Below are positions 47,013-56,732 of a stretch of DNA of 64,000 nt, piece after piece. The stretch's first letter is position 1, and every line of letters begins with the position of its first letter. Under the pieces are notes generated by a model. The model saw only the letters and a program-made list of their open reading frames with translations. It had not been told where the DNA came from and made no database searches. Made by a program: the position numbers and the translations under genes. This DNA comes from Fennellomyces sp. T-0311 (lineage: Eukaryota; Mucoromycota; Mucoromycetes; Mucorales; Lichtheimiaceae), in assembly GCA_025266875.1 (NCBI GenBank), contig JALLLT010000047.1:124001-188000 (forward strand), written 5' to 3'.

Positions 47013-48669
47013 AAAATAGGAACTAGATTGTCATCTTGCATACTCGAATCAACACATACGCACATTATAATTAAAAAAGCTGCAATATATGGAAATTGGA
47101 TAGGGGAAAGCGTTTGCTACTTTGCTGTAATACAACATACATACTTTGGAGCGTCTGTGCGATGAAAAAATTTCACAGATAAAGGAGAATATGAAGTGAC
47201 GAAAGGGTTTACGGTTCGCGTGGCCGGTGGGAGACGCCTCGTGGTTCGCACCATGCCACGTTGAAAGGTACCCTTTCTTGTGGTGAGTCCCTTTTTCAGT
47301 CCCCTAAGCTGAAGTTCGCGCGACCCTCAACCCATCCATTTGGGTTGTACTTCGTGCTGTACAGTTCGTATTGCAATTTTTAGTAGCCCTTGTTGACAAA
47401 TGGCTATCGTAACTTGAATTTTATGTTTAACTCTAACCTCTCTTAGCTACCAAAAAGTCGGCTAGTAATAGCAAAATTGCATTACCGTAAACTCAAGCTT
47501 GGCCGACAAGATAATTCGCCAAAACTGGATTGTTCGGATTTGCTTGAATATTGAATATTTTTCTGATCGAGAAGCAAGGCAGTTCCAAAAGTACATATAC
47601 AAAAGATAGTAAGGAAGATAAAGTACTAGTTCGAGAAGTGGTAAAAAAGTATAGAAGTATTTTTGTTTTAGCTGCATGATGGCGATCACTATGTCAATGC
47701 TGTGTCATAAACGCTTGTTTCAGAAGTCTATTGTATTGACAAAACAAGTCGGCTTTGTAATAGCGAATGAAAAGTATAACTAACTGGGGTAAGAAAAGAG
47801 TTGTAATAATAGTACCAAGCCATAGTTATACCCCTAATAAAAGCATGGACCCTTGCTTCCCTGGGCGTTACACGCGCGATTGACTTGCATGCATGTCCAC
47901 GTTGGCTGATGAACCACGTTTCATGTTACAGGGGATAGAAACACATACACCACTATTCCTTTCCAGGTCACTTTTAAAAGACCCTCGCTCGATCGCAAGG
48001 AGATAACATCGATTCAATCCTGGGCCCGTTCGCCTCGACACCTTAGGGCCACTCAAGGATACAAACACGGGTGATTCGAGAAAAACCACTCATGCGCACG
48101 CACACCCATTCATAGGCTGAGAGGAAACAAACTCCTTTCACTCCCTTGATAACTGATCGGAGTATATTCGAATAATAAGCAAAGTATGAACAGACTGGAG
48201 TGTATAAAAAGTTTAAAGTTTTGTGATGACGGTATAGAGGAGAAGGTTCGTCAATGACGCAAAACCGAAAAAAAAGTTATTAGAAAATGACAAGCTAAAA
48301 GTGATCTGATGACGAAATAGTAATAACACTTTTCAGGGGAAAAAACCAAAAGAGGGGTATGTGAGAGAGGGCCATTCGATGCTCAAGGAGTTACTCAATA
48401 TTACTGCTGATGACCTTTTACTATTCCGATCCGATCATTACGCAGTTCTAAAAAACAGATTAAGATGATTGATTCTATATGGTCCCCTCCCTCCCTCCGC
48501 TCCTATACTGTGCCTCTGTTGACATCTTATGCAACGTGGGCAAAGTGCCAAGGAGTGGATGGTGGGGGTTTGAATGAAAACTATATAAAAGGCGACAAGT
48601 TGAGACGCCATAAAATCATTTAACTTGCACAGACTACTTCTCTACTTTACTTAACCTTTTTTTCTAACA
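47013..48669. other. 1.66-kb intergenic region upstream of the Myb gene
   Basis: AT-rich with a CT-rich block at 48483-48502. No gene was recognised. The last 90 bp carry the TATA box listed separately. Confidence 0.5.
48582..48589 (+). promoter_or_regulatory. TATA box of the Myb-like gene
   Basis: TATATAAA lies about 85 bp before the ATG at 48670, in a good position for a core promoter. Confidence 0.6.
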
Positions 48670-49290
48670 ATGGATATCAAAAACTTACTCAACACTCAAC
48701 AACAGCAACATCACTTCTTTGACAGCAATGGCAACAAGGATGAGATCGTCGAATTTCCAAAGTCACCAATGACATGGTCAACTGCTTCGTCATACTCAAC
48801 AGCTGGAAGTCCTGCCTCAAGTTACTCGTCACCCCCATCCCCACCCACTTCACCTACTGCAGTCTTGCCGCCCCTCACGAATGTCCTGCAACTTCAACAG
48901 CGAGATAGCAGACAATCTAATAAGGGAGGATCGACACCACAAACTCGGACACCATGGACACCCGAGGAAGATTACCTTTTGGAGCAGGGATACAGCCAGG
49001 GCCTCTCGTGGGCTATGATCTCCGCTACCTATCTGCCTCATCGTTCGCGAGGTTGCTGCTGGGGTCGTTACAAGACACTTCAAAGCAAAGCCATGGAACA
49101 GCGCGAATGGACCAACGCTGAAGATCGATTACTCATGCTGGCCGTCAAAAAGAACTCTCGACTGTTCAAAAAGGCATGGAAGACCGTTGCTGACGAAATC
49201 GGTTGCCGATCATGGAAAGAGTGCGAACTGCGATCAACCAAGCTTACAGGTGTTATTCGCAAGAAGCAACACCACGCGCCAGCTTTCTAA
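48670..49290 (+). CDS. Small Myb/SANT-domain protein, probable transcription factor
   Basis: A single-exon 206-aa protein. The N-terminal half is Gln-, Ser- and Pro-rich low complexity (SPASSYSSPPSPPTSP). Two SANT/Myb repeats follow. The first is at about 95-140 (TPWTPEEDYLLEQGYSQGL, SWAMISATYLPHRSRGCC, WGRY) and the second at about 143-192 (REWTNAEDRLLMLAVKK, WKTVADEIGCRSWKECELR). The spaced tryptophans and the acidic EED/AED starts are typical. The protein ends soon after with a basic tail. Probable DNA-binding regulator; targets unknown. Its strong TATA box and lack of introns set it apart from its neighbours. Confidence 0.85.
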   Translation: MDIKNLLNTQQQQHHFFDSNGNKDEIVEFPKSPMTWSTASSYSTAGSPASSYSSPPSPPTSPTAVLPPLTNVLQLQQRDSRQSNKGGSTPQTRTPWTPEEDYLLEQGYSQGLSWAMISATYLPHRSRGCCWGRYKTLQSKAMEQREWTNAEDRLLMLAVKKNSRLFKKAWKTVADEIGCRSWKECELRSTKLTGVIRKKQHHAPAF

Positions 49291-49896
49291 ATTAACTCGC
49301 AATGACGGTGAACTGTCGATCAGATCCCGGTTGCTTTTGCTACTTCCTCCTTTCGCCTTCTCCTCTGTAAATTGAATCCGACAAAGCCGATACCAAGTTA
49401 CCATGTCGTGCATTAAGATGATATACGCAGCAAACACAATAACCTCCTACACATACATTGGACAAGAGGCGCATAAGCACGCACGCACATCACACAAACA
49501 CACGCACGCACACACACACACTCTCACACACATGCTCCTTTCCTTATGTTTATGCTTATACGGTTTCATTGTAATTCCTCGTTATGCACATAGTAGTAGT
49601 TATTTTTTTCTACGTCATTAGTTTAATCCATCACCCTTTCAAAAAAATTTGTACAGAGAAACACAGGAGTATAATCATCATTAAAATAATAATAGTAATT
49701 TTTTTTGTAAAAAAAAAAAGCATGAGCTTTTTGAAATATTGAGCAAGAAGAAAAAGTTTATTCATTGGAACAATTTCAGCAATGTAAAACATGCCGATTA
49801 CCCCCGTAATTTCATCCACTTGCATTATGATGCTTTGTTTTTTCACTTAATTTGTTTTTTTCTCAGTCCAAATACCAAAAAAAAAATGCATGAAAA
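49291..49896. other. Intergenic gap with a CA-rich microsatellite
   Basis: Contains a CA/CG-rich run at about 49480-49531 (mixed CACA and CACG units), and AT-rich sequence before the receptor kinase ATG. Confidence 0.6.
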
Positions 49897-52800
49897 ATGC
49901 ATATTTGGATTATCGTCATTGCTATTCTGAACTTTTGCTTAGTGCAAAACGTCACTACAGATGCACCAACGGTACCAAGATGCGGAGAGAACCAAACATG
50001 GACGGTACCGACAACACGACCAAAATTTGTGGTCATATCCCATTACTCGATCCTTCAAACGTTTTTCAACAATCCCGAAGCTGCCGCACGGGAGGCAGCT
50101 GCGTTATTAGACATCGAGATCGAATGGGATCGCCATGTTGTGAGCAGCGCGGAAAAAATGAAGAATGACATATTGTCTGCAATCGAACGCGTAAGATCGA
50201 TGTGAAAGTGAAAGGGAATTGTCCTAATTTGGAATTGACAGGGCGTGGATGGCTTGATCGTAACAATACCCAACGATCTGGTATTCGAAGCAGTAAAGGA
50301 GGCTGTAAATCAGAAAATGCCCGTGATCGTATTCAATACTGGACTGGAATATGCCCGACAACTCGGTTTAACTCGTGTTTTGCAATCTGACAAAAAGTCT
50401 TCGGAGATGCTGGCCCAAGAGTTGAAGAGGCGCAATTATTCAAGACCCCTTGCGGTTCAGATCACAAGTTCGAGTTCCCCTCTCGATGACAGGACGTTTA
50501 ATGCACGAGCGAATGGATTGAGCACGTTTCTAAACCATACAATCGACGTCATGTCCGTGGAAGAAATGGATAATTCGAGCAAAGTGGTTAGCAATGCACT
50601 TTTGGAAGGACCTTATGATTCTGTCATTTCTTTAGGAGGTTTGGTAAGTCGATCAATAGTTACAGGGATCGAGATAGACAAAGTTCAGGTGCTAAGGAGT
50701 GAAAAAAAAAAACTTGGCATAGGCGGGTGTTGAACTTATTAGCGCTGCTGCAACACAAGCCCTGAAAGTCGAACCAGATCGACGATTGGCAGTCTGTTAT
50801 TACGATGTTGGTAGCAAGAACAACATGTCAGAAATCTTCGATCGTTTCAATGATACGTTTGGTATTAGCCAGATGCCATATTACCAAGCTGCACTACCTG
50901 TATTTCTTATGTACGCTTGGGTAAGTTGAAAAAAACGATCCCTGATATCGCGATTTGCATGGTAACAAAATTCATGATATCATTATACTTTTTACAGCAT
51001 ATTTCAGGATACCAACCCATAATCAACAAGACTGTCAGCACGGGGCCAAATCTTGTCACAAATGAGACATATTCTTCGCTTATACATGGCGACGGGCACT
51101 CAATCATACCTGGTCAAGATATCCATTCCACCATTGGCACGGTTATTCCAAACATTGATGGCGATACCTATCAGGCTGGTATTATGTCCGGTGTTTATGA
51201 TTTAGCGGGGAAGTTAAACTGGTCAATCTCTTCGACCGAAGAGGTAAAGATTATATCTGTGCAAAAAAAGTACGAGTCGATTAAAAGAAAACTCTACGTG
51301 ATATAGGATGGATTGATTGGTAATCAATCGACGCTGAAGAGCCACCTCAAAGCACATGCCGATGCAGGAGTCCGGGGATTAGTACTGCAATCCAGTGATC
51401 CATCTGTAGTCCAGTATGCAGTGGAACTGAGCGACGAGCGCAAGATCCCGTTATCTGTTTTGGGAACCTTTTTTGAAAACGTGGGAATCAACAACTATAC
51501 CAATACTACACCGTGAGTTTTATTTTGTGATAAAGAGAAACTAGCTATATTAAACTGATTGTTTAGACCCATAGCTACAAACATCATTACAGATCTCAAT
51601 GAGCTTGCTGAATCGATCGCAAGTCAGTTGATCACTGACAATGCCAGCAGACCTGTTTGTTTCGGATCGCATACACCTTGGAGAGCAAGTCATCTTTGCG
51701 AGAAAGTGTATTTTCAATGGCGACACCTACAAGGGAACACAACCGGCGTGCTGTTATCAGACTTTAGTCATTCAATCAATCTGTCTACGATCAGCAGTAT
51801 GGAGATTGATCTTCAAGCAATCGTTGAAAATTTAAGGAAGCGCGGATATCAACCCGATGTGTATATTACACTATCAGAGCATGTCTTTAGCGCCCTCAAT
51901 TACGTAAGAATCCGCATATCTTACCAAGAAGCTAGAACTGATGATGTAAATTTGTGGATAGCGAATGTTACGAGGTCTGTTGGACAACGGTACAACGGTC
52001 TATACAGCAATAAGTCAGTTTGATCAAATTCAAGCGTATCTAGAGGGTCGAGTGGATAGAGTATGGTAAGTTTTCGGATTAGATGAATAGCTATGGGTCA
52101 ATGAGAATAGTAGTAACGTATAATCTTAGGCATTATAACACGTATTCGAATGGCTTTTTTGCCTTGTTGGATATTTTGTTGGCCAAGACCTCGTCGCATC
52201 GCCCGTGGACTGGAACTCTTCTGACGGTCCCTCGAATATATGAAATATGTAATCCTGGTCAATACTATGTCGAATTATCCGACTCGCCATACTGTGTAGC
52301 AAAAGAATCTGGAATCACTAGTCCATCTATACGTTGCGCTCCATGTCCCATGGATACCTTCAGTTCTGATCCGAATCAACACGAATGTACACCTTGCCCC
52401 TACGGTGAATATTCAGAAGAAGGATCTGCATCGTGTGTACACTGCAATGATGGGCACGAAGATAGTACACACGCTCATACCCAGTGCATCATTTACGCTC
52501 AAGATCAAGCTCAAAAGCGACGACGGATTTTTATCGGGATATTCGTGCCTGTTGGTGTCATAGTACTGGGTGCTCTTCTTGGCTTCTGCTTTTGGCGGTT
52601 CCGAAAGTATCGAAAGATCAGACTACTCGAATCCCCGTCTCAAACTGCTTGGTTACTATCTTATGACGAATTGATGCGACCATCGATGCAACACATGTCA
52701 TCCTTGCCATCGCCAAACTCTATGACGAGCGTTACAAAGGAGAACAACGAAGCGCTGTCTCCTTCGGTTTTGCCTTTACTGGGAGCCGAAGATAATAGTA

Positions 52801-55800
52801 GCTCTACACCCACATCACCTCATATACTCGATAAATCTCGAACGCCGGAACTTGTTGCTAGTGGAGCAGCAGCTCTGGCAGCGCCTTTGGCACCAAAGAC
52901 ACAACGATCAATGTCGGAGGGGAATGAAGATGAGGGTGAACATCAGCATGGGAATGCTACTGAACCAGGGACACGAGATTATTTTACCTTGGCAACGGTA
53001 CATGAGGCACCCACGTAAGACCTGATCAAATACGTTGCATAAACGATCCGTATTAATATTGTTGAATATATTAGTCTGCTGTATTATCCAGATCGGCATA
53101 CGAAGCGACTAATTCGTGCCATCGGTTTCCAGTAAGTGCTACGACTATAAAGTCATACCTCTATTAATATTCGCGTCTTCACTTTAGTCGGAACTTGCCT
53201 GTATTCGTTAAGCAAATTGGATTTCGGCGTGTACACCTTAATCAAACAGCTTATCACGAGATTGCATTAATGAAAATGGCTCGCCACTCGAAGCTGGTTG
53301 AGTTCATTGGATTATGTATCGAGCCTCAGGGCACATTTCTTGTCGAAGGTCAGTGACATGGATACAAGGAAAAAAGCATCGTAACTAATGCAATATATAT
53401 GTAGAATACTGTAGTAAAGGAACACTGTACGATGTATTGAAAAATCCTGACCTAGACCTTACTTGGATCTTTCGATTTTCGTTGATCAACGATTTAATTG
53501 AAGGGCTCGAATTCTTACATCGTTCCAAGTTTTTGTTCCATGGTTGTCTTACTTCACAAGCCTGTGTCGTGACTGGTCGATGGGAGCTCAAGATAACCGA
53601 TTTTGGTCTGTACAAGGTTCGAGAATCTCAATACGACCCTGTCACCATCGCGTCACTTTCCAAGCGTTATCCCAAAGAAACGTGCCACGATTCTAGCGTG
53701 TCTGGGCCGAGGAGCCTGAGTCCTACACATAACCATGGATACTATGATTCGCCAATGCATGTTGTACCACATACCGAGAATTTGCTATGGCTGGCTCCGG
53801 AATCAGTAGTGGATACCAACTTGGACATTTGGATTACATATCCTAGCAAGAAGGCTGATATATACAGGTATATTCTGCTCGGCGATATGGTTTTTTTTGA
53901 ATTGCTGATACAAAAAGTGGCAGTCTCGGTATGATTCTGAACGAGATTGTTACGAGGGCCAAGCCGTATCAGAAAGAACTTATTGAATTCGAGGAGAACT
54001 ATGAGGCTGTGTTTGATCGTATCAAGCACCATGATCTACTCCCTGCCATGTTGACTCCAGACCAAGACGTGTATGTAGGACAGGTGAACGAGATTATCAT
54101 ATCTTGTTTAAGGCGTGAAGTGATGTCTCGACCATCGATTGGTCATGTCAAGAGCCGAATCAAAATTATCGATCCACATATCACGGGATCAGATAATGTG
54201 GTGGATAACTTGGCATTGCTAGTAAGCTATCTTTATATATATATATCTTTAGCTGGCAATTGACATTTGGATTCATTTTAGCTGGAAAAATATGCAAACA
54301 ATATGGAAAATCTGGTTCGCAAGCGCACAGCCAATTTACAGCAAAGAACAATCGAACTTGAGGAAGAACGTGCACGTACCCAGAATTTACTCAAAGACCT
54401 CAAAGCTGCCAAAGAGGTGGCGGAAGCAGCAGCCGCATCAAAGCAAAACTTCTTGGCAAACATGTCACATGGTAAGACAAAAGGATAATAAATGGCGTTG
54501 TGCATTATTGACATTATTTTACAGAGATCCGCACGCCGATGAATGCTGTTATTGGGATGTCTCGCATCTTGATGGAGAGCAACCTGCCAGCAGAACTACA
54601 TGATTGTGCCGAGACCATTGAGTCATCTGGTAACCATTTGATGGCTATTATCGACGATATCCTCGACTATTCCAAGATTGACTCTGGAAAGCTTGGATTG
54701 GAGCATCGACGAATGGATCTGGTGGGCTTTATGCAACATCATACCCAATAGCTTACTAATAATCTAAGATAATTAGATTTTTGTGTTTGAGAGTGCACTA
54801 AAACTAGTGGCACCCAATTACATGGACAAAGGTATTATCCTGTGGTATATTATCGATGCGGACGTGTCTACTGGTGTCTACGGAGACGTTGTGAGACTGA
54901 GACAAATATTGCTCAACTTGTAAGTAAAAACCGCTCTTGTCATGTAGCAATTGAATTAACAATGCAACAAGACTCTCGAATGCTCTCAAGTTCACCAGTG
55001 AAGGTTATGTCTCGGTTCATGTTTCACGTCAAGGTTCATCACCGAGCACACCAACGTCTCTTGAGCCAGACGATAGCGACGAAAATAGCGGCTTACTATC
55101 AGAGTCGCGACTTGCTCAAGGTCCGAGAACCGAGTCATTACTGGTTTCCATTCGTGATACCGGTATTGGTATTCGTAAAGACAAAGCCGATAAACTGTTC
55201 CAAACGTTCTCGCAAGTGGATGCTTCAACAACGCGAAATTTTGGTGGAACAGGACTTGGATTGGCAATCAGTCGAAGGCTCACCAGAATGATGGGAGGTG
55301 ACATGGTGAGTTGATCCGTATTGAATTGAACCGATATGCTGATGCCTGAATTGTCGTTTAGTGGTTTGATTCTGAAAGCGGCCAAGGATCCACGTTTTAC
55401 TTTACTGTCAAGCTGCAGAAACAAGCTGATAGTCCAACCTATGCTTCCTTCAATTGTTTCAGCGAACTAACGAGACTTTGTCATAGCGTAATTATTGTTG
55501 CTGACAATCATTACGGAAGGAAAGCTTGGAACCAATTGTTTGGGTCGATACCAATGCCACAAGCCAAAGTGATGTGTTTCAATGACGCCGAAAAGGAGCT
55601 CAAACAAAAAACGAAAGAGAAACTATCGCTGCTGGTGATTGACGAGGAATTTGAAGTGATCAAAACGTTTGGACCGACACCAACAACGAGCCAAACTGTA
55701 TTAACTAGCCTGCAAGAATGTATGCCGTTTCTTCGCTCTATACCCACGATATGTATCAAAGATATGCGAAATCAACGCCGTGAGCGTATTTCCGATGCCT

Positions 55801-56732
55801 CCGATCAATTGACATTACCGCAGATGGCCAAACAAATTCCCTTGGAACAAGATTCGCCTACACCTGGCGAAGAACGTCGCAATCCGTTCGACTCTCTCGA
55901 TGATGGACGCACGTTATATCTAGTCAAACCATTGAAGAATTCCAAATTGTTGGCAGCATTTCTCAAGCTATTGAGGCCGCCGAATGACGATTCGAAGCAA
56001 ACGAAATCCAATGCCGCTTCTCCTACCGCATCCCCTGCAGCCTCTCTTGACCGATCCACGAGTATTCGATATAAACGTCGGGAACGATCAAACACTATAG
56101 GAAGTTCGTTATCGAGTACTTCGACGACGTCGTCTGGACGACCATTGAATGAAATCGCAGGTAGCGTGCGATCACTTTTGGTGGATGATAATCCAGTCAA
56201 TCAGAAAGTGGTCATGCGTATGCTTTCTCGCCTTGGTGTTCGCCCAGAAGTCGCTCAAAATGGAAAGGAGGCCTGCGACGCTGTGCGCAAATCCCAAAAG
56301 ACGGATGATCCAATCGATCTCGTGTTTATGGACATTTGGATGCCTGAAATGAACGGGTTTGAAGCATCCGAGTATATTCGTTCCAATTTGTCGGAATCAT
56401 CCGTGCATCCATATATTATTGCCATGACAGCTTGTGTCATGCCTGGTGATCGAGAAAAATGTCTCGCATCAGGTAAACTATTCCCTCCTGTATTTTTTTA
56501 TTGTAATACCGGATCTAACAAAAGAATCCTCCTAGGTATGAATGGATATGTTAGTAAGCCTGTGCGCAAGGATGAGCTGGAGGCTTCACTTCACACCTAT
56601 ACCCAAGTCATTGTGAGTGGAGTGTCTGACGAGTCGCAATCCGAGAGATCTGCAACAGAATCTGCACCCCCAGAAGCCGAAAGTGAATTGCCATCAGTCA
56701 AGGTTACATCCAATGATAACAGTAGTCAATAG
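49897..56732 (+). CDS. Receptor hybrid histidine kinase with guanylyl-cyclase-like kinase homology domain
   Basis: Eighteen exons join in frame to 1940 aa: 49897-50190, 50242-50643, 50723-50920, 50998-51243, 51307-51512, 51567-51903, 51962-52065, 52130-53014, 53075-53131, 53188-53348, 53405-53867, 53924-54221, 54282-54471, 54525-54721, 54777-54919, 54972-55305, 55362-56472, 56536-56732. In order: signal peptide; an ectodomain like a periplasmic sugar-binding protein ([21 protein letters not shown], with two lobes, about 30-640); Cys-rich repeats ([28 protein letters not shown]); TM (about 728-750); a kinase homology domain (about 900-1195) with VFVKQ Lys and ITDFG but HGCL in place of HRD, so probably not a kinase; a coiled coil starting [12 protein letters not shown]; HisKA with [13 protein letters not shown]; HATPase with SNALKFT, DTGIGI and [10 protein letters not shown]; a degenerate receiver; and a full receiver ([26 protein letters not shown]). 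It should signal from the cell surface by His-Asp phosphorelay. The ligand is unknown. Confidence 0.88.

Follow-up and report, generated by a model that had tools for sequence, protein, structure and literature searches.

A fungal receptor histidine kinase whose kinase homology domain and linker resemble those of animal receptor guanylyl cyclases

Animal receptor guanylyl cyclases such as GC-A/NPR1 and GC-C cross the membrane once. Behind a juxtamembrane W..(Y/F).. motif they carry a kinase homology domain (KHD) with HG in place of HR and without the full catalytic triad, followed by a linker, YANN.E..V..RT...EE.K.T..LL, that leads into a class III cyclase. According to passages of two papers, it is through a signalling helix (S-helix) that the hormone signal reaches the catalytic domain of these receptors (PMC6278801, PMC1592074). 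The receptor-cyclase kinase group is called metazoan-specific in a passage of the Dictyostelium kinome paper (PMC1420674), and the portions of PMC1592074 that concern dead kinases followed by an S-helix describe this order only for animal receptor cyclases. Fungal hybrid histidine kinases (HKs), of which parts of PMC5285503 recognize 16 groups, combine HisKA, HATPase and a C-terminal receiver with intact catalytic residues. Groups X and XVI carry a Ser/Thr kinase domain, according to a passage of PMC8510515, and in the relevant section of PMC1592074 Sln1-type fungal HKs have a coiled S-helix feeding the HK. Here we analyse a 64,000-nucleotide stretch of DNA (the window) from Fennellomyces sp. 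T-0311, a member of the Mucorales, contig JALLLT010000047.1, positions 124,001–188,000 (G000:C125:124001-188000), in a genome of 45.6 Mb and 182 contigs. A gene at 49897–56732 of the window, on the plus strand, encodes a protein with features of both kinds of receptor.

The predicted product is a hybrid HK with a receptor-cyclase relay, built from two known kinds of protein. We consider it likely to be a single-pass fungal receptor hybrid HK in which the juxtamembrane segment, dead KHD and coiled-coil linker are homologous to those of animal receptor guanylyl cyclases, and in which an HK and receiver replace the cyclase. The architecture, the homology, the dead triad, the intact HK and receiver residues and the spread in this reading come from sequence. 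As in receptor cyclases, a single transmembrane (TM) helix, juxtamembrane motif, KHD and linker follow one another in the same order up to the output domain. Unlike receptor cyclases, the output is HisKA-HATPase-receiver, the ectodomain is Peripla_BP_4-like and Cys-rich rather than of the ANF_receptor family, and linkers of Mucoromycota have one extra heptad (three in protein P0102). Judged by its lack of a cyclase domain and its other ectodomain, the window protein is not a receptor guanylyl cyclase. It shares the intact HisKA, HATPase and C-terminal receiver of fungal hybrid HKs, from which it differs in its TM anchor, periplasmic-binding-protein (PBP) ectodomain, receptor-cyclase-type KHD and linker. 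Hybrid HKs of groups X and XVI are soluble, with the kinase domain at the N terminus. They too have a protein kinase-like domain upstream of the HK; the window KHD, which lacks a full triad and lies between TM helix and linker, is set apart from theirs by description only. Sln1-type HKs, as portrayed in the part of PMC1592074 cited above, have no KHD. A literature search covering titles, abstracts and text passages found no published description of the KHD-HK architecture. Passages of a survey of early-diverging fungi report unprecedented hybrid HKs, mostly with transmembrane helices (PMC5285503); the present proteins may be among these, Mortierella members perhaps included.

Joined, the 18 exons proposed in an earlier note on this DNA form a single open frame of 1,940 residues from the ATG at 49897 to the TAG ending at 56732, and 17 of the 17 introns are GT-AG. 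The exons, all on the plus strand, are as follows.

Exons 1–6, +: 49897–50190, 50242–50643, 50723–50920, 50998–51243, 51307–51512, 51567–51903
Exons 7–12, +: 51962–52065, 52130–53014, 53075–53131, 53188–53348, 53405–53867, 53924–54221
Exons 13–18, +: 54282–54471, 54525–54721, 54777–54919, 54972–55305, 55362–56472, 56536–56732

The NCBI protein of the same strain, P0001 (1,414 aa), is identical throughout to residues 527–1940 of the spliced protein; it starts at M527, without the signal peptide and first PBP domain. The N-terminal extension is supported by a relative, P0003, which aligns over residues 22–640 (844 bits). Intron 54722–54776 has the donor GTGGGC, and the same junction (MDLIFVFESA) is found in P0001 and P0002; the stretch from HisKA to HATPase is presumably a few residues shorter than in related kinases. 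P0001 spans KHD, linker, HK and receiver in one chain, and hence a split into two genes between 53015 and 54281, which the earlier note had named as a possible refutation, is unsupported. The protein is predicted to comprise a PBP-type ectodomain, a Cys-rich stretch, one TM helix, KHD, linker, HisKA, HATPase, a probable degenerate receiver and a receiver, encoded as follows.

49897–49947, +: signal peptide-like N terminus, aa 1–17 (hydropathy; no cleavage site predicted)
50017–51033, +: first PBP domain, about aa 41–310, CUT2 sugar-binding type (Pfam Peripla_BP_4 at aa 53–296, 8.2e-13; PDB 4ru1, 1.3e-6)
51121–52238, +: second ectodomain half, possibly PBP-like, about aa 340–632 (weak)
52248–52487, +: Cys-rich juxtamembrane stretch with 9 Cys, aa 636–715 (Ephrin_rec_like and NCD3G matches below threshold)
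52527–52583, +: single TM helix, aa 729–747 (hydropathy 2.65)
52647–52673, +: juxtamembrane motif AWLLSYDEL, aa 769–777 (regular-expression match only)
53013–54173, +: KHD, aa 891–1201, predicted to be catalytically dead (Pfam PK_Tyr_Ser-Thr at aa 911–1039 plus a second stretch, 3.6e-25; PDB ranking, tree, residues)
54189–54401, +: receptor-cyclase-type signalling-helix linker, aa 1207–1257, including intron 54222–54281 (alignment, hidden Markov model (HMM))
54441–54688, +: HisKA, phospho-acceptor His1280 at 54468–54470 (Pfam, aa 1271–1335, 3.3e-20)
54882–55418, +: HATPase_c, aa 1382–1524 (Pfam, 4.7e-26)
55464–55976, +: probable degenerate receiver-like domain, about aa 1540–1710 (model of a Circinella relative; no Pfam match)
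56175–56591, +: receiver, phospho-acceptor Asp1829 at 56331–56333, with Lys1883 (Pfam Response_reg at aa 1777–1894, 2.7e-23)

HisKA, HATPase and receiver are thus found by Pfam in one chain, and the linker leads into a complete HK plus receiver as the earlier note had said. Pfam found no class III cyclase domain (PF00211) in the protein, and no ANF_receptor (PF01094) match in its ectodomain, where Peripla_BP_4 matched instead. The idea of a cyclase-type receptor body consequently holds for juxtamembrane segment, KHD and linker and fails for the ectodomain. The exterior, too, is more than the one two-lobed sugar-binding-like domain with Cys-rich repeats of the earlier note: besides a Cys-rich stretch it has one clear two-lobed PBP and a second, weakly PBP-like half. 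Pfam gave no match for this half in the window protein and a sub-threshold LppC match (0.0013) in its relative P0014. AWLLSYDEL resembles LLWKVDFKDI of animal receptor cyclases, the regular expression matching 5 of 14 rows from fungi and 10 of 20 from animals, and a Ser/Thr-rich stretch separates it from the KHD. Between HATPase and receiver, strands and helices alternate in the AlphaFold2 model of P0004, a Circinella relative, and this stretch is probably a degenerate receiver.

The KHD sits between TM helix and HisKA, with the HG-for-HRD change (H1009-G-C1011) and the ITDFG motif (D1029) that the earlier note had read. Against all PDB sequences, the window KHD plus linker scored 137 bits with GC-A/NPR1 and 70 with GC-C, followed by CTR1 (57) as the best non-cyclase. 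A profile of 11 fungal KHDs without the linker gave the same order (GC-A 195, GC-C 143, CTR1 115), with a tyrosine kinase entry, which we take to be JAK-type, at 112, BRAF at 106 and BTK at 102. The profile comparison that the earlier note had suggested therefore places GC-A and GC-C on top of the solved kinases with and without linker. Searching 5.8 billion proteins with KHD plus linker, where matches need shared 5-residue words and similar length, returned 27 proteins among 4,973 candidates. These were Mucorales kinases, animal receptor cyclases (1.5e-41 for the best, 88 bits for the weakest), a fragment of an Absidia HK at 76 bits and a plant kinase at 62. When the query was the gut-fungus protein P0120, 47 hits were accepted out of 1,503 candidates; these began with P0145 (Piromyces finnis), continued with HKs of Mortierellales and Mucorales and then with animal receptor cyclases down to 104 bits, and the next score was 39.

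A maximum-likelihood tree of 54 rows separates 14 animal and 23 fungal KHDs from 17 other kinases with full support (100/100). The fungal rows form one clade (100/98), in which the gut-fungus row branches first and the other 22 stand together (94/89, not starred). Rows were hand-chosen: 12 of 29 Mucorales, 10 of 92 Mortierellales, P0120 (not P0145), and 12 of 13 animal rows together with GC-A and GC-C. CTR1, plant receptor kinases, P0144 and kinases of the same genome served as outgroup, which held no tyrosine kinase and from which L017, L030 and L032 were left out. Rows spanning 240 residues or fewer had been dropped from the alignment (142 to 137), and activation-loop columns of the fungal and animal rows were removed before building. 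An HMM of 12 animal KHDs scored the window KHD at 194 bits, the two gut-fungus KHDs at 238–243, Mortierellales at a median of 200 and Mucorales at a median of 188; six held-out animal cyclases reached 169–337. The best of 20 other kinases was CTR1 with at least 138, its sequence being a fragment. Among the 121 rows from Mucorales and Mortierellales, three with truncated spans fell below this value (P0114, 134; P0022, 104; P0023, 101). On these comparisons the resemblance of the fungal KHD to guanylyl cyclases is real and specific.

The window KHD has the two marks of a receptor-cyclase-type KHD, HG for HR and a broken triad. K918 and the DFG D1029 (K-ITDFG) are kept, C1011 takes the place of the HRD Asp and A1016 that of the catalytic-loop Asn. 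In none of the 122 fungal KHDs (29 Mucorales, 92 Mortierellales and P0120) do the Lys and the Asp residues of HRD and DFG occur together. Mucorales (29/29) and animal rows (13/13) have lost the HRD Asp, Mortierellales (92/92) the DFG Asp, with no fungal gaps at these sites; Lys is kept in 25 of 29 Mucorales (a gap in the other 4) and the DFG Asp in 23. Loss of different triad residues in the two orders fits an absence of selection for catalysis. HG replaces HR in 27/29 Mucorales, 91/92 Mortierellales (one gap) and 13/13 animal rows. By comparison, all of 26 aligned proteins, hand-chosen from about 125 fungal proteins and not including the models that end in or near HisKA (P0109, P0111, P0121), have the HisKA His, the N-box, the G-box and the receiver residues Asp, Thr and Lys unchanged. 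With the triad broken and these residues invariant, selection appears to have kept the HK and receiver and not the kinase activity of the KHD. The DFG-to-APE segment of the window KHD (aa 1032–1093) is 62 residues long, within a range of 23–69 in Mucorales rows; it spans 41–169 in Mortierellales (more than 100 in 46/92) and 21–26 in animal cyclases. The long segment is possibly a regulatory loop.

The linker aligns with its animal counterpart (for example in P0147), the likeness running right up to where the cyclase domain begins, and the 12-residue stretch from which the earlier note had read the linker is present at aa 1218–1229. In the gut fungi the linker lacks the extra heptad and is animal-like to its end (RTAELEFEKNKTSQLLKEM). 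An HMM built from 20 animal linkers gave 46 bits for the two gut-fungus proteins, a median of 28 for 34 Mucorales rows (8.9–34.1) and of 24 for 92 Mortierellales rows (15.7–28.2). P0001, identical to the window protein in the linker, scored 32.2. The best of 1,285 open reading frames (ORFs) from 80 bacterial hybrid-kinase loci reached 12.7 bits, and the best of 97 from 8 HK loci of the same genome 0.7.

A seven-residue repeat, RT..L..RT, is found in the window protein and 124 database proteins; in the fungal KHD-HK set it is absent only from P0120, P0143 and P0145, and it is absent from all animal rows. The distance from RT to the phospho-acceptor His is 47 residues in 122 of 126 proteins, 61, or two heptads more, in three (P0120, P0145, P0102) and 64 in P0012. 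The linker of P0102 (Mortierella sp. GBAus27b) has four tandem RT-heptads (RTKNLQA-RTADLQA-RTADLQA-RTAELEE), its 14 extra residues being two further copies. As these are whole heptads, the phase of the coiled coil is kept, and changes of linker length by whole heptads fit a rod-like relay part. P0102 would be a natural case of such lengthening, although an error of model or assembly is conceivable. The 17 residues added in P0012 break the phase and resemble a retained intron. In the AlphaFold2 model of P0004 (mean predicted local distance difference test score, pLDDT, 70.6), linker and first HisKA helix form one helix, residues 320–408, at a pLDDT of about 52–71, its start (316–324) being below 50.

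The protein, which the earlier note had called a chimera, is not a one-off: among the matches listed, 120 of 7,993, the KHD-HK architecture occurs in Mucorales, Mortierellales and Neocallimastigomycota, and silence on other fungal lineages carries no weight in such a set. Order labels were assigned from printed names, on the taxonomy as we take it to be. The same domains stand in a single protein in many other fungi (for example P0002, P0003 and P0005), and a second gene of this layout lies elsewhere in the genome (L037, C161:309001-318000). Such recurrence means that the arrangement is not due to chance. The C161 gene aligns with Phascolomyces P0014 in nine pieces at 52–87% identity, and like the window gene it has an apparent intron just before LEKYAN, at the border of KHD and linker. 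An exon-wise Peripla_BP_4 search of the genome found only the window gene; as the C161 gene aligns in that region, the search misses divergent copies. PF00211 matched once in the genome, at L009, an ORF that by inspection is of leucine-rich repeat-PP2C-cyclase type and adenylyl-cyclase-like, and this search found no other class III cyclase. In a tree of HK cores, Mucorales and Mortierellales group together (100/96), with the gut-fungus HKs close by (97/91, including P0117); this tree does not prove a single fusion. The gut-fungus relatives P0145 and P0120 share KHD, linker and HK, but Pfam matches no PBP domain in their ectodomain, which in P0145 has a short Cys-rich stretch. In these relatives the relay may have been retained and the sensor swapped.

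Further HisKA places lie on the same contig (G000:C125:259752-288260; at 259752, 279014–279269 and 288003), within about 110 kb of the window gene. Upstream of it, an open frame of 211 residues (48655–49290, +) has TPWTPEEDYLL and REWTNAEDRLL stretches that resemble SANT/Myb repeats, and an intergenic CA-rich simple repeat was seen by eye at 49480–49535.

One rival explanation is that the module moved from an animal lineage into an early fungus, or the other way, and was afterwards joined to an HK. Only Mucorales, Mortierellales and Neocallimastigomycota are holders among the matches listed, the most animal-like KHD is that of the gut fungi (238–243 bits), and gut fungi live inside animal guts. 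Moreover, the animal rows form their own group at 53/0 only, which leaves some room for nesting of fungal and animal KHDs. Against a transfer, the gut-fungus row is the first to branch off within a single fungal clade (100/98), matching fungal phylogeny, and we regard such a transfer, in place of descent from an early opisthokont, as unlikely. A more conventional origin, in which an ordinary tyrosine kinase-like (TKL) domain was joined to an HK and acquired its HG motif and a generic S-helix by convergence, draws on a passage in which HKs are commonly preceded by S-helices that bear an ERT signature (PMC1592074). TKL and tyrosine kinase structures also match the fold no worse than GC-A. In the search with the window KHD and linker the gap is small, the plant kinase (62) coming not far behind the weakest animal match (88) and the Absidia fragment (76). 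The bacterial linker control is thin, with ERT upstream in only 3 of 68 H-box ORFs, and the weakest Mucorales linker (8.9) lies under its best score (12.7). Against this stand the 80 bits by which GC-A leads CTR1, the 100/100 split and the gap from 104 to 39 bits. We therefore rejected a KHD closest to ordinary TKL or tyrosine kinase members, given that GC-A and GC-C outrank CTR1, the JAK-type entry, BRAF and BTK, and found no sign of the KHD falling within TKL kinases that the earlier note had allowed for. Generic S-helix convergence was likewise rejected on fungal linker medians above both the bacterial control, thin as it is, and the own-genome control. Convergence is already largely refuted and has very little probability left.

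The window protein keeps Lys918 and the DFG Asp, and each of these residues is kept in most Mucorales rows; this could point to an active protein kinase, making the receptor one with two enzymatic outputs like hybrid HKs of groups X and XVI. Because none of the 122 fungal KHDs has the full triad, and each order has uniformly lost one of its Asp residues, we rejected an active dual kinase and consider it very improbable. Least probable of all is an artefact in which a receptor pseudokinase gene and an HK gene lying side by side were merged. Our gene model comes from genomic sequence alone, the NCBI model lacks the first ectodomain half, and some database models stop within HisKA or shortly past it (P0109, P0111, P0121). 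Yet the MSHGM end of P0121 is what read-through past exon 13 would give, and single-protein models exist in many fungi. Same-strain P0001 is identical across the junction, the C161 gene has the same layout, the 17 introns are GT-AG and the RT-to-His spacing is nearly constant. A two-gene artefact was accordingly rejected.

We thus favour a fungal receptor HK with a relay homologous to that of animal receptor cyclases. In such a receptor a small molecule, possibly a sugar or a compound resembling one, would bind the PBP ectodomain of a dimer, and the resulting change would cross the membrane and reorient the KHD pair. The KHD would phosphorylate nothing and act as an allosteric relay, shifting a two-stranded coiled-coil linker continuous with the first HisKA helix. 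This shift would set the balance of autophosphorylation and phosphatase activity at His1280, from which phosphate would pass to Asp1829, to a Ypd1-type histidine phosphotransfer (HPt) protein and on to response regulators. We infer the reorientation of KHD pair and linker from the part that the signalling helix plays in receptor cyclases, and the ligand class, dimerisation, direction of switching and downstream partners are inferred with it. The genome has two HPt-like places and 21 matches to receivers (17 above the cut-off), which are consistent with the predicted phosphorelay.

These findings suggest that a signalling part of dead kinase and coiled linker is used with different outputs in animals and fungi. 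The same relay stands before a different enzyme in three fungal lineages, and is hence separable from its output. How a signal passes through KHD and linker, a question of long standing, becomes testable via a His-Asp relay, an output that can be read in yeast. A receptor-cyclase-type relay also explains why automatic database labels on fungal proteins such as P0012, P0073 and P0109 read 'RGC/RGC protein kinase' or 'guanylate cyclase'; 'histidine kinase' is also in use as a label. It may further bear on the guanylate-cyclase family that a passage of PMC8778642 calls abundant in Glomeromycotina, though no fungal guanylate cyclase has been described; the lineages compared here are Mucorales, Mortierellales and Neocallimastigomycota. 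We tentatively raise one further possibility, on which we remain doubtful. The HK form may be the older. A receptor of an early opisthokont or earlier eukaryote would then have driven a two-component output through dead kinase and coiled linker; in animals, where histidine kinases were lost, the receptor body would have been retained and a guanylyl cyclase put in at the end of the linker. If this is true, the hormone-receptor cyclases of animals would be converted histidine-kinase receptors.

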